From: Bacteroidales bacterium
Lineage (GTDB): Bacteria > Bacteroidota > Bacteroidia > Bacteroidales > JAIOZK01
Direction: 5' to 3'
DNA length: 64,000 bases
Assembly (NCBI GenBank): GCA_021738625.1
Contig: JAIPBS010000002.1
Coordinates: forward strand, 124,001-188,000
Shown: positions 3,386 to 63,753 of the stretch, piece by piece
Numbering within the stretch: the stretch's first letter is position 1
Layout of the letters: every line of letters starts with the position of its first letter
Made by a program: the position numbers and the translations under genes
Notes under the pieces: generated by a model
The model's input: the letters and a program-made list of their open reading frames with translations, nothing else
Told to the model about the DNA's origin: nothing
The model's database searches: none

Positions 3386-3415
3386 CAAATATAATAAATG
3401 TTTGTAATTTTACAA
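3386..3415 (-). promoter_or_regulatory. Promoter of the PrsW-like gene
   Basis: On the minus strand TTG (3413-3415) and TATATTTG (3386-3393) are separated by about 19 bases. This is a good match to the Bacteroidetes -33 TTG / -7 TAnnTTTG promoter. The start codon is 24 bases downstream of the -7 box. Confidence 0.6.
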
Positions 3416-3510
3416 CTTATTGCCTGAGAAGTTTTCAATAAATTTTTGAATATGGAAAAGGCTAAAAAAATATGTAAGCAAGGGTGATAATTTTGAATAG
3501 GAATGATAAG

Positions 3511-4452
3511 ATGCTTGAAGGAACGGTAATTAAATCCACCGGCAGTTGGTATAAAGTGATGACGGAGAACGGGAAGATATGGGATTGCCGGATCAGGGGC
3601 AGTTTCCGTATCAAGGGGATCAAAACCACAAACCCGCTTGCTGTGGGCGATCATGTGGCTTTTGAGCCGGATGAAGATCAAAATGTGGGGCTTGTCAAGA
3701 AAATATTTCCGCGAAAAAACTACATTCTCAGGAAATCCACCAAATTATCCAAGCTCTCTCATATCATTGCAGCCAATATCGATCAGGCCGTGCTGATCAT
3801 TACCCTGGTTAAACCCAGGACCTCTACAGGCTTCATCGATCGCTATCTGGTTACTACCGAAGCTTACCATATCCCGGCCATATTGGTTTTCAACAAAACC
3901 GACCTGTATGGTAAAAAGGAACTGAAGCAACTGGATGAATTGATTGAAGTATATGAAAATGCCGGATATACCTGTATCAGAACTTCTGCAACCGAAGGAG
4001 AAAACCTGGAAGCTTTTATAGGCCTTTTGAAAGATAAAAACAGTTTGCTTTCAGGGCATTCCGGTGTGGGCAAATCCACGCTCATCAATGCCATTCAGCC
4101 CGGTTTGAAATTAAAGGTGGGCGATATTTCAAATGTTCATCAAAAAGGAAAACACATTACCACATTTGCCGAGATGCACCCCCTGTCTTTTGGAGGGAGC
4201 ATCATCGATACACCCGGTATCAAAGAGTTTGGTTTGCACGATTTTGAGCGGCATGAGATCGGGGAACGTTTTCCCGAATTTCGTGCCCTGATGTCTGATT
4301 GCCGTTTTAGCAATTGCACCCATGTGCACGAGCCGGGTTGCGTTGTGAAAAAAGCTGTGGATGAAGGTAAAATAAGCGAAACCAGATACAATAACTATCT
4401 TCGCATACTGAAAGATGATTATCTCGATAAAAAACAATGGGAACTAAAATAG
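3511..4452 (+). CDS. rsgA: Ribosome small subunit-dependent GTPase A
   Basis: RsgA is a circularly permuted GTPase that assists late maturation of the 30S ribosomal subunit. The 313-residue protein begins with an OB-fold domain (GTVIKSTGSWYKV, LAVGDHVAFE). The G motifs follow in permuted order: G4 VFNKTDL, G5 RTSATEG, G1 GHSGVGKSTL, G2 around KGKHITTF and G3 DTPG. The C-terminal zinc module is CRFSNCTHVHEPGCVV. The ORF track begins at a GTG (3484), but the ATG at 3511 gives MLEGTVIKSTGSWY, the expected N-terminus. It is the first gene of a long plus-strand envelope/housekeeping run. Confidence 0.95.
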   Translation: MLEGTVIKSTGSWYKVMTENGKIWDCRIRGSFRIKGIKTTNPLAVGDHVAFEPDEDQNVGLVKKIFPRKNYILRKSTKLSKLSHIIAANIDQAVLIITLVKPRTSTGFIDRYLVTTEAYHIPAILVFNKTDLYGKKELKQLDELIEVYENAGYTCIRTSATEGENLEAFIGLLKDKNSLLSGHSGVGKSTLINAIQPGLKLKVGDISNVHQKGKHITTFAEMHPLSFGGSIIDTPGIKEFGLHDFERHEIGERFPEFRALMSDCRFSNCTHVHEPGCVVKKAVDEGKISETRYNNYLRILKDDYLDKKQWELK

Positions 4453-30379: not shown

Positions 30380-31018
30380 TTACTCTTTGCGCTTGCCAAG
30401 ATAATCGGAAATGCTTTCTGCATTTTCTTTCAGGCCTTCTTCTCCGGCATGCCAGTCGGCGGGGCAAACTTCGCCATGTTCTTCGTAGAAGCTGAGGGCG
30501 TCGACCATACGCAGGGTTTCGTCGACGCTGCGACCCAGCGGCATGTCGTTGACCACCTGGTGGCGTACCACGCCTTGCTTGTCGATCAAAAACAGCCCGC
30601 GATAGGAAGCCGGTTCTCCGTCGAATTCCATTTCGCCTTCTTCGTTGTAATCGTATTCGCCTGCCAGCACATCATAGTTTTCGCTAATGGTTTTGGAAAG
30701 GTCGGCAACAATGGGGTAGGTCACACCCTGTATGCCGCCTTTTTCCTGAGGGGTGTTCAGCCAGGCCCAGTGCGAAAACTTGCTGTCGACCGAGCAACCC
30801 ACAACGGCCACATTTCTTTTTTCAAATTCTTCCAGCTTTTTTTGGAAGGCGATCAATTCGGTCGGGCAAACAAAAGTGAAATCGGCCGGGTAGAAAAAGA
30901 ATACCACGTATTTTTTGCCGATATACTGCTGCAATGAAAATTTTTCCTGGAATTCTCCGCCCTTGATCACGGCGTCTGCTTCAAATGTAGGAGCTTTTTT
31001 TCCAACTAATACTGCCAT
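30380..31018 (-). CDS. ahpC: Typical 2-Cys peroxiredoxin (AhpC/Prx1 type)
   Basis: A cytoplasmic peroxidase that reduces hydrogen peroxide and organic hydroperoxides. The 212-residue protein has the peroxidatic cysteine in YPADFTFVCPTEL and the resolving cysteine in HGEVCPADW. Both are present, giving a typical 2-Cys enzyme. GGIQGVTYPIVAD is the GGLG-like sensitivity motif region, and the C-terminus is longer than in robust forms. No ahpF neighbour is seen, so the reductant is probably thioredoxin. It is a single-gene transcription unit with its own promoter and terminator. Confidence 0.93.
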   Translation of the reverse strand: MAVLVGKKAPTFEADAVIKGGEFQEKFSLQQYIGKKYVVFFFYPADFTFVCPTELIAFQKKLEEFEKRNVAVVGCSVDSKFSHWAWLNTPQEKGGIQGVTYPIVADLSKTISENYDVLAGEYDYNEEGEMEFDGEPASYRGLFLIDKQGVVRHQVVNDMPLGRSVDETLRMVDALSFYEEHGEVCPADWHAGEEGLKENAESISDYLGKRKE

Positions 31019-31160: not shown

Positions 31161-31263
31161 TATACTGATTCGGAACAGGTTTGCAATGATTGCCCTCCTG
31201 CTTCAATCGGTATAACTGAATCTAACAGAAAAATGTTTTGCATTTTTAATAAGATTCAGTATA
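31161..31263 (-). repeat. R103 dispersed repeat, copy A (inverted orientation)
   Basis: This 103-base copy reads on the minus strand as TATACTGAATCTTATTAAAA...TCAGTATA. It differs from copy C at roughly eight positions. The first hairpin (ACTGAATCT/AGATTCAGT) is intact. The second hairpin has a mismatch in its outer stem, and its inner left arm is altered. The spurious 77-residue ORF at 31140-31373 is mostly this repeat. Confidence 0.9.
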
Positions 31264-31326: not shown

Positions 31327-32805
31327 CTACAGAATCTTATTCTCATCAAATTCAATACGCTGATCTTCCATGAAATCGTAGAGGGTAAGTTTACGTAACT
31401 GGAAGAAACTGTTCCAGTATGTTTTTAATGCACTGTAATATCCTTTTCTGGCATTGTCGTTATCGATCTGGGCGTTGTTAAGTTCCAACACATCGTTCAC
31501 CTTGCCGATCATATAGCGTCGTTGGGTAACGTCGAAACGTTTCTGGGCCACGGTATCGGCCTTGGCGGCAATATAAAGCTGTTTTTCCTGCATGTTGAAT
31601 TGCATCACCTGCAGGAAGATATTCTGATCAAAGTCGATGCGTTCCTGTTCAACAGAAGTTCTGACCAGCTCCTGGTTGGATTCGGCCATACGGATGCGTC
31701 CTTTGGCCTGCCCCCAGTCGAGTATGGGGATGGTCAGCCCAACAACTACCTGTTGCTGGTCGAGCGGGTCCTGGTACACATTATCGAATTCCTGAGCTGT
31801 TTGGGTTAAGCCAAAAACCGCATACAGCTCGGCGTCGAAACGGCCGTTCATTCTGGCCTGGTTTACCTGGCTTTCTGCTTCCAGCAAGCGACGCTGAAAG
31901 GCCAGTCCGTCTGAGGTGTTGTTTCTGGCTTCCACAACGGCAAGTGTCACATCCACGTCAAAATGATAGGTTTCGGTAGGAGGGATCAATTCGATCCGGA
32001 CTTCCTCCGTGATCCTTAAAAAGGACTTCAACCTGAACAAGTTGTTTTCGTATTCGAGCTGTGCGTTATCCACGGCTGCTTCTGCCCGCAAAAGATTCAA
32101 TTCCAGTTGCAGAAGATCGTTCTCCGCGATTTTTCCAAGATTATATCTTCCCTGTGCAATATGGAAAAGGGTATCGTAATTGGCCAGGTTTTTGGCGGCG
32201 ATTTCTTTTTCGATCTGTGAAAGCAACAAATTGAAGAAATACTCCGTGGCTTTGATCGAAATATCTTCCTTGTCTTCCAGGTAACCCCTTTTGGCTTCCT
32301 CGTATTTAAGCGGTTCGATTTTCTTGTCCCATCGGTAAGGGTTGTATTGAAAGATGGGCTGGCTATAGCCAATGTTGACGGGGGTTGACAGAAATGAGGT
32401 ATCCTTGTTGCCGCTTACGATGTTCACATTTCTTTCCAGGCCCGAACGCAGAAAAACCTGTCCGCCGGTAAATCCGATGCGCTGATTGAGCGAGAGTGAA
32501 CCTGAATACTCGGTAAACCTTCTTTCTTTGTATTCGGTATTTCCGTCAGGCTGGATCACTGCATCGATGGAACGGTTGAAATTGGGTACGGTACCGTCGA
32601 ACTGCAGAGAGGGCAGGTAAGTGGCACGGTATGATTTATATTCCCAGTAGCTTCTTCTGAAACGGTGTTTGGCGATCAAGGCATCGGGCGACTGTTGATG
32701 CGCGATGTAGATCACATCGTTTAGGCTAAGCCGGTTGATCTCTTCCTGGGCGCCTGCCTGAAAAAACATGCCTGAAATAAGGATCAATACTAGAAATTTT
32801 TTCAT
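31327..32805 (-). CDS. TolC-family outer-membrane efflux protein
   Basis: An outer-membrane channel of 492 residues with signal peptide MKKFLVLILISGMFFQAGAQ and a first helix LSLNDVIYIAHQQSPDALIAK typical of the TolC/OEP family. Two repeats of long alpha-helical hairpins follow, with the mid-protein IPILDWGQAKGRI signature. It is the last gene of the moxR-adaptor-permease-tolC run, 21 bases after the permease. Together these would form a tripartite pump or secretion apparatus exporting an unknown substrate. Confidence 0.9.
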   Translation of the reverse strand: MKKFLVLILISGMFFQAGAQEEINRLSLNDVIYIAHQQSPDALIAKHRFRRSYWEYKSYRATYLPSLQFDGTVPNFNRSIDAVIQPDGNTEYKERRFTEYSGSLSLNQRIGFTGGQVFLRSGLERNVNIVSGNKDTSFLSTPVNIGYSQPIFQYNPYRWDKKIEPLKYEEAKRGYLEDKEDISIKATEYFFNLLLSQIEKEIAAKNLANYDTLFHIAQGRYNLGKIAENDLLQLELNLLRAEAAVDNAQLEYENNLFRLKSFLRITEEVRIELIPPTETYHFDVDVTLAVVEARNNTSDGLAFQRRLLEAESQVNQARMNGRFDAELYAVFGLTQTAQEFDNVYQDPLDQQQVVVGLTIPILDWGQAKGRIRMAESNQELVRTSVEQERIDFDQNIFLQVMQFNMQEKQLYIAAKADTVAQKRFDVTQRRYMIGKVNDVLELNNAQIDNDNARKGYYSALKTYWNSFFQLRKLTLYDFMEDQRIEFDENKIL

Positions 32806-48529: not shown

Positions 48530-49177
48530 TTAGGGTTCGAATGGTTGATGGAGGAAGTCATGGATTTTTTGGGCTTTGGTTTTGCCGATCCCTCTTATTT
48601 TTTGGAGGGATTTGCAATCTGCAAAAAGCACTTTCTCTATCGTTCTAAATTCTTTTAATAAATCATAGGAAAGTTTTTTACTGATGCCGGGAAGTCCCTG
48701 AACGAAAAACAATTGATGGCTATGTAAACGTTTTGGTTTGGTGCCTTTTGTGAGTAACCTGTTATGGATTCTTTCCTCATGTTGAACTATTTTAACAATC
48801 GTATTTGCCGTTTCGCATGCAGTTGCTGTATAGTAAACGGGAATTTGCCAGCAAGAGGTGATTGAAAGCAAAGCGCCTTTCACTGCGGTTTTGCTTATCA
48901 TAGAAGTGGTTCGCAAAGGATTGCCTTCAATGATCATCAATACCGGCAATGACTGATTTTTAAGCTTTTTGCATTGTCCGAATAGCACTTGGGTTTTAAG
49001 TGATTGGATCAAATCAACAGCTGTTTTTCTTTCCACCAATACTTTATGGGGAATAAGGTAATCTCCCGCATTAAGATTTTTAAAACCAATGTTCGATAAT
49101 TTATCTTTCAGAATTTCAGGTATGCCTGATGCCCTTTCGCGGTAATCAATGATCATTTCCGGCGTAGGAGGTTTCAT
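48530..49177 (-). CDS. ERCC4/XPF-type nuclease with helix-hairpin-helix
   Basis: A 215-residue protein. Residues of about 8-130 are an XPF/ERCC4 nuclease domain with the catalytic motif VLVERKTAVDLIQSL (ERKxxxD) and upstream MIIDYRE. Residues of about 155-210 are a tandem helix-hairpin-helix region (VQGLPGISKKLSYDLL and IRGIGKTKAQKI). The order matches the nuclease half of archaeal Hef/XPF, without a helicase. Such enzymes cut branched or flap DNA. The bacterial versions are little studied, so the role in repair is inferred. It stands alone on the minus strand. Confidence 0.85.
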   Translation of the reverse strand: MKPPTPEMIIDYRERASGIPEILKDKLSNIGFKNLNAGDYLIPHKVLVERKTAVDLIQSLKTQVLFGQCKKLKNQSLPVLMIIEGNPLRTTSMISKTAVKGALLSITSCWQIPVYYTATACETANTIVKIVQHEERIHNRLLTKGTKPKRLHSHQLFFVQGLPGISKKLSYDLLKEFRTIEKVLFADCKSLQKIRGIGKTKAQKIHDFLHQPFEP

Positions 49178-49469: not shown

Positions 49470-49571
49470 TATACTGAATCTTATAAAAATGCAAAACATT
49501 TTTCTATTAGATTCAGTTATACCGATTGGAGTATGAGGTCAATCATTGCAAACCTGTTCCGAATCGGTATA
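49470..49571 (+). repeat. R103 dispersed repeat, copy B
   Basis: A 102-base copy (one T deleted) beginning TATACTGAATCTTATAAAAA and ending ATCGGTATA. Hairpin 1 is intact. The outer stem of hairpin 2 is perfect (TATACCGATT/AATCGGTATA), but its inner left arm has drifted to GGAGTATG. It ends 31 bases before the sixA ATG. Confidence 0.9.
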
Positions 49572-49602: not shown

Positions 49603-50112
49603 ATGAAAACTTTGTATATCGTACGCCACGCCAAATCCTCCTGGGATTATCCCGACCTGACGGACCATGACAGGCCCTTGCTTGAAAAAGGCAAGAAGCG
49701 AACAAAGAAGATCATCGATTTTATCCTCGACAAAAGTATACAAGTGGATTATATCATATCTTCCTCGGCAGTGCGTGCTCTCGAAACAGCGAAGTTTCTT
49801 GCGCGCGCAATGAGATATCCGGTTGAAGATATCAAAGTTGATCCGCAGGTTTATCATGCTGATGCGGAAAAACTGAAAGACCAATTTTTTGATTTAAGCG
49901 ATAAGTACAATTCGGTAATGTTGTTCGGGCATAATCCTGCCTTTACGAATTTTGCAAATTTTTTCCTGGAAGAAAAAATCGATTGGTTGCCAACATCCGG
50001 TATTGTCTGCATTGATTTTGAAACGGAAAAATGGGATCAGATTTTTATTGCCGTTTCGCATACGAAGTTCATTATCACCCCCAAAATGCTTAAGGCGTCC
50101 GAGAACGTATAA
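49603..50112 (+). CDS. sixA: SixA-like phosphohistidine phosphatase
   Basis: A 169-residue member of the histidine phosphatase superfamily. The catalytic RHG-type motif is YIVRHAKSSWDYPDL, and the second His is in VMLFGHNPAFTNFANFF. SixA proteins remove phosphate from histidine in signalling or PTS proteins. It precedes ppk1 by 41 bases. R103 copy B lies immediately upstream, where the promoter should be; TATCTTTA near 49582 is a weak -7 candidate. The target is unknown. Confidence 0.88.
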   Translation: MKTLYIVRHAKSSWDYPDLTDHDRPLLEKGKKRTKKIIDFILDKSIQVDYIISSSAVRALETAKFLARAMRYPVEDIKVDPQVYHADAEKLKDQFFDLSDKYNSVMLFGHNPAFTNFANFFLEEKIDWLPTSGIVCIDFETEKWDQIFIAVSHTKFIITPKMLKASENV

Positions 50113-63650: not shown

Positions 63651-63753
63651 TATACTGAATCTTATTAAAAATGCAAAGCATTTTTCTGTTAGATTCAGTT
63701 ATACCGATAGGAACAGGAGGTCAATCATTGCAAACCTGTTCCGGATCGGTATA
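63651..63753 (+). repeat. R103 dispersed repeat, copy C (best-folded copy)
   Basis: A 103-base element. Hairpin 1 has stems ACTGAATCT/AGATTCAGT and AAAAATGC/GCATTTTT with an AAA loop. Hairpin 2 begins at the next base, with stems TATACCGAT/ATCGGTATA and GGAACAGG/CCTGTTCC, and a 17-base loop (AGGTCAATCATTGCAAA). All four arms are perfect in this copy. The ends form an imperfect inverted repeat (TATACTGAATC/GGATCGGTATA). No ORF is inside. Confidence 0.92.

Follow-up and report, generated by a model that had tools for sequence, protein, structure and literature searches.

R103, an apparently undescribed double-hairpin repeat of the order Bacteroidales that is probably a MITE-like element

Few parts of bacterial genomes are as poorly explained as their small non-coding repeats. 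The stretch of DNA analysed here (64,000 nucleotides, hereafter the window) contains one such repeat, R103, and raises the question of what kind of element it is and how it is dispersed. The initial annotation had placed three copies in the window. A covariance model built from copies in the source genome recovered exactly these three as full-length elements, and they align almost without gaps:

31161-31263, minus strand: R103 copy 1, full length, located by alignment and covariance model
49470-49571, plus strand: R103 copy 2, full length, 102 nt, located by alignment and covariance model
63651-63753, plus strand: R103 copy 3, full length, the copy singled out in the initial annotation, 130.5 bits

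The model scores of the three were 130.5, 117.0, and 116.6 bits. All three are intergenic, as had been claimed. Copy 1 lies between ORFs at 31327-32805 (minus) and 30380-31018 (minus), and copy 2 between divergent ORFs at 48530-49177 (minus) and 49603-50112 (plus). In G001, a genome of the same genus, the intergenic region at the site of copy 2 is shorter and lacks the element, with flanks too diverged to define the junction.

Three copies in 64 kb had been taken to imply many more, and this prediction held. The source assembly (G000; 4.10 Mb in 82 contigs, 94.7% complete, with the window on contig C25) contains at least 120 covariance-model matches, or about one per 34 kb. BLAST gave at least 41 matches in this genome, with 40 of 154 candidates scored, and the 27-mer of the right end, allowing up to three mismatches, was found at 105 sites compared to none for the reversed pattern. 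Together, these three results exclude chance. Full copies are usually 102-103 nt and about 93% alike per column. Of 50 copies, 46 fall outside predicted ORFs. The orientation of the flanking genes is mixed (15/11/9/8). There is no strand bias among the copies, toward the lagging strand or otherwise. R103 is thus short (103 nt), non-coding, multi-copy, and dispersed, as MITEs are. Solo right ends on contigs C15, C37, and C80 proved to be truncated copies. Two copies on contig C49 (L070 at 99261 and L072 at 100772) have identical nearby flanks, GCAAAGACACAAAGCTTCACC...GTGATCCTTTGTG, which indicates that a repeat bearing R103 has itself been copied, the two copies lying about 1.5 kb from each other.

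The two hairpins that had been reported to abut both fold as described (RNA z-scores from -5.2 to -7.9, DNA z-score -9.7). In copy 3 they are arranged as follows:

63654-63699, plus strand: hairpin 1, with a 9-bp outer stem ACTGAATCT/AGATTCAGT and an inner stem AAAAATGC-AAA-GCATTTTT
63700-63753, plus strand: hairpin 2, with a 9-bp outer stem TATACCGAT/ATCGGTATA, an inner stem GGAACAGG/CCTGTTCC, and a 17-nt loop

To measure covariation, 28 diverse elements were aligned by sequence alone. Paired positions had 97 double changes versus 48±4.6 after shuffling, with none of 500 shuffles reaching 97, and the covariation score was 0.278 versus 0.153±0.010. Kinship of the sequences inflates shuffle tests of this kind; the diversity of families sampled therefore matters, as does a slid-partner control, which lowered all five covariation measures. 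Across the 28 relatives, pairing in the outer stem of hairpin 1 is 94%, in types that include GAATC/GATTC, GCTTC/GAAGC, GGTTC/GAACC, and CATTC/GAATG, and the inner stems vary more freely than the outer ones. Among the copies of the source genome alone there is no covariation, as expected from a recent expansion. From the changes across the 28 elements we conclude that both hairpins are conserved as structure. This bears on an earlier reading in which hairpin 2 was weakening and some constraint might lie on sequence rather than on structure, a suggestion that does not hold across the family. Weakening does occur in individual ageing copies, but at the level of the family compensatory changes preserve both hairpins. 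Conservation also extends to the right-arm core GCAAACCTG, as had been noted, and this apparently reflects its part in an inverted-repeat end.

The loop of hairpin 1 is GCGAAGC in 11 of the 28 elements, a sequence that forms an unusually stable DNA mini-hairpin. The foot of both hairpins is TATA in nearly all copies rather than a GT[AG]G guide. One-hairpin remnants occur in the source genome, several with hairpin 2 alone and others as fusions such as TATACTGAATCTTATACCGAT. Deletion of the sequence between TATA/TTA words, which recur at the bases of the hairpins, could account for these forms.

An imperfect inverted repeat had been reported at the two ends of R103, and it was confirmed:

63651-63677, plus strand: left inverted-repeat end, 27 nt, which in relatives reads TATACTGRnnCTTnACAGGTTTGC
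63727-63753, minus strand: right inverted-repeat end, reverse complement TATACCGATCCGGAACAGGTTTGCAAT

In diverged members the right end, reversed, reads TATACCGAnnCGGAACAGGTTTGC, and both outer ends share the consensus TATACYGRnnCnnnACAGGTTTGC. Within one element, the left end matches the right end at 51.6% of positions 6-27, compared to 27% for shuffled ends. R103 thus has terminal inverted repeats that are homologous over about 24-27 nt, as is characteristic of MITEs. Because the ends are homologous, hairpin 1 is also homologous to hairpin 2 read in reverse, and the two form an inverted pair.

The family extends well beyond the source genome. G001, the only other genome of the same genus that was compared, has one copy consisting of hairpin 1 alone. 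With at least 120 copies in the source genome, this indicates that the amplification there is recent. Diverged relatives with the same layout occur in at least 27 of 393 genomes of the order, from many families, a lower bound given the stricter filters and the few candidates scored per genome. Their constant layout is TATAC, hairpin 1, TATA, hairpin 2, GTATA, mostly in 98-105 nt and in some cases with extra insertions. A pattern that covers both ends was found in 29 of the 393 genomes, with two matches in all for the reversed control. Several queries and patterns gave no convincing match in plasmids, phages, or viral contigs; weak plasmid matches (E of 0.4 or higher) in unrelated genera were dismissed as chance. 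Across the whole window no Rfam family scored above its gathering threshold, and relaxed settings gave only chance matches far below threshold. No earlier description was found in the openly accessible literature, and the family is apparently undescribed, as the initial annotation had supposed.

One pair of relatives records the insertion of something else. G275 (L139, 301-433) and G341 (L091) carry orthologous R103-like copies with the same flanks, and the copy in G275, unlike that in G341, has a clean 30-bp palindrome insert (CCTGCCCGCCGTAATACTTTGGCAGGCGGG). For this different, REP-like unit the two copies represent a filled and an empty site. In G264 (L199, L216, L217), hairpin-1 loops hold similar GCCTGCC...GGCAGGC inserts.

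Evidence on how R103 itself inserts comes from G095, which has at least 105 end-pattern sites and in which one element lies inside another twice (L190, about 3386-3590, and L271). When the insert in L271 is removed and one TA is kept, an intact CATACTAAACAGC is restored, as in four other copies; the left end of the L271 element reads TTAACTGG instead of TATACTGG. For L190, the best score against each of the six intact copies is obtained when one TA is retained. These two nested insertions are best explained by duplication of TA, although each needs some sequence change, and a cut without duplication at these sites is less likely but conceivable. In the source genome, the flanks show a weak palindromic preference, with T at -2 and A at +2. 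A BLAST search among the loci retrieved, which used a loose pattern and gave many false pairs, found no clean orthologous empty site, leaving the nested cases as the usable ones.

The initial annotation had described the layout as that of a MITE or a REP/BIME-type element. At the level of class this stands, since R103 is dispersed, multi-copy, non-coding, and not in Rfam. The MITE half is favored because of the inverted ends of about 24-27 bp, the TA sites, and the nested insertions; the half that invokes REP/BIME and RAYT is not upheld. Overall, we think that R103 probably belongs to a MITE-like family of non-autonomous miniature inverted-repeat transposons that has spread over the order Bacteroidales. 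A transposase supplied in trans would recognize both ends of about 24-27 bp and insert the element at TA, probably duplicating it, which would give copies that read TA-TAC...GTA-TA. Each end would also pair with its own inner arm, so that two hairpins abut and three TATA words mark their boundaries. The hairpins may help end recognition or excision when the DNA is single-stranded, for instance behind replication forks, or alternatively they may limit harm from transcription. Single-hairpin forms would then arise by deletion between the TATA repeats.

The search for the enzyme that moves R103 covered both a full-length parent and a RAYT gene, which had been raised together. No autonomous element with matching ends was present among the first end-pattern sites listed in G000 and 12 carriers, and two inward-facing pairs of ends, 1.5-1.6 kb apart, enclosed no transposase when opened. 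This negative result is tempered by the frequent loss of multi-copy transposons from MAG assemblies. Given the TA site, IS630-type transposases are natural candidates. On contig C4 of G095 (L190, 424-1190), two R103-like elements in inverted orientation lie on either side of about 560 bp of sequence, in which an IS1380-type transposase is represented by an N-terminal fragment (NF033539; score 37.6 bits, cut-off 180). This remnant is absent elsewhere among the loci retrieved, and an IS1380 parent was set aside as coincidence.

The strongest rival holds that R103 is a REP doublet (BIME/REPIN), in which each hairpin is one REP, the two are inverted, and the unit is moved as single-stranded DNA by a RAYT-type Y1 (HUH) transposase. 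Two homologous hairpins in inverted orientation, intergenic location, high copy number, hairpin integrity kept by compensatory change, and loops such as GCGAAGC that suit stable DNA hairpins all agree with this. In addition, RAYT subclass 2.6 of Bacteroidetes is reported to have atypical flanking structures without GTAG, which makes a non-canonical REP conceivable and keeps the RAYT route open at lower weight (PMC6006769). The surroundings of the Y1 genes argue against it. Across 15 carrier genomes, R103 does not flank any RAYT-type gene in the manner of a REPtron. In 14 carriers, about 50 Y1 genes, which include subclass 2.6-like YIH[QN]NP proteins, had no R103-like element in the flanks examined (mostly 1-1.5 kb), and carrier G103 has no Y1 match. 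The source genome has two stand-alone IS200/RAYT-like Y1 genes (L063, C76:20755-21093, and L064, C59:39573-39911), likewise with no R103-like element in the flanks examined. They were rejected as parents, since they carry their own unrelated palindromes: one lies amid palindromes of the GCCCCGTTGGGGC type and the other amid those of the CCCACGGTT...AACCGTGGG type. L063 and L064 are likely separate REP systems. Moreover, strand bias is lacking, and TA at the nested sites is not expected from a Y1 mechanism. We therefore regard a REP doublet as doubtful.

A third Y1-like domain in the source genome sits within a 1212-aa type IIG restriction-methylase (L248, 1186-4824, minus strand, corresponding to about 2185-5823 on C25). 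The protein has Eco57I, TaqI_C, and N6_Mtase domains, with the Y1 (HUH)-like domain at residues 597-655 or so, flanked on both sides by methylase motifs. G048, G209, G262, and G331 also have open frames, about 1000-1300 aa long, that match Y1_Tnp. The gene lies about 200 bp from one R103 copy in the source genome, but its counterparts in other carriers are not near copies, and it was rejected as the mobilizer.

A reading intermediate between MITEs with terminal inverted repeats and REP/BIME deserves about the same weight as the REP doublet. Covariation of each end with its own inner arm is not a prediction of plain DDE/TIR models, which speaks against the MITE-like interpretation. It is conceivable, if unlikely, that R103 stands for an order-wide class of TA-targeting elements whose mobility depends on the two adjacent folded hairpins and not on linear ends alone, with some enzyme reading the hairpins in single-stranded form.

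We consider it improbable that the hairpins are primarily a cis-regulatory or processed RNA element, such as an RNase III site, an mRNA stabilizer, or a terminator, that is retained for that role with mobility secondary. In its favor, the predicted RNA folds are strong and the structure is conserved and co-varies, and NEMIS and similar MITEs do affect adjacent mRNAs via RNase III (PMC2229807). By contrast, the mixed orientation of the flanking genes, the lack of an Rfam family, the insertion of elements into one another, and the presence of one copy in one genus-mate and at least 120 in the other do not fit. A terminator or promoter role was rejected since the one copy examined has no consensus match to either kind of site. 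More improbable still is that the compensation is quasi-palindrome correction (template switching at hairpins) in a plain TIR MITE with ends palindromic by chance: the source genome often shows hairpin deletions and one-hairpin remnants, and covariation is absent within it, but the two-hairpin layout, spacing, and loop motifs persist across many families of the order and the inner stems are freer than the outer, which is what a functional outer stem would produce.

The MITE-like interpretation thus concerns an element with an unusual combination of features for a MITE, namely at least 120 copies in one genome, relatives across an order, and a structure kept by compensatory change. This makes it testable whether transposition depends on the fold or on the end sequence alone, and TATACNGANNCNNNACAGGTTTGC provides a search handle for the enzyme that moves R103.

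As a comparison, the closest described elements are RUP, Correia/NEMIS, and CIR. RUP of pneumococcus is 107 bp long, has 108 intergenic copies at TA sites, and is a MITE of IS630-Spn1 (PMC2229807). R103 resembles it in having about 105 bp, more than 100 intergenic copies, inverted ends, TA sites, and no ORF. The two differ in that RUP has a known parent, IS630-Spn1, and 9-bp terminal inverted repeats, whereas R103 has ends of about 24-27 nt, two separate abutting hairpins, and no parent found. Correia/NEMIS elements of Neisseria are 105-107 bp, with 5'-TA-3' termini, terminal inverted repeats of about 24 bp, and target duplication (PMC2229807), and R103 is similar in size, TA ends, and inverted-repeat length. 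In Correia elements, however, the 5' end pairs with the 3' end in one stem-loop, whereas R103 has two adjacent arms; sequence and phylum differ too. CIR, the CcrM-associated intergenic repeat of Caulobacter, has two long inverted repeats that form two arms (PMC2229807). Like CIR, R103 is intergenic, has no ORF, and folds into two independent stem-loop arms, a likeness rather than membership. CIR, which has not been shown to be a typical MITE, includes a GANTC motif and a linker, whereas the arms of R103 touch and its outer ends are homologous inverted repeats. BIME/REPIN units with RAYT (TnpA-REP) are also intergenic, multi-copy pairs of inverted hairpins, but R103 lacks the GT[AG]G foot and an adjacent RAYT in the carriers examined, and has TA at its insertion points. 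BrickBuilt, an intergenic MITE of Porphyromonas gingivalis, also in Bacteroidales (PMC4596501, PMC10969869), contains a minisatellite, whereas R103 has no tandem-repeat core; the two were set apart by description, not by sequence. R103 combines the size and ends of RUP and Correia with the two-arm fold of CIR, and it spreads over an order.
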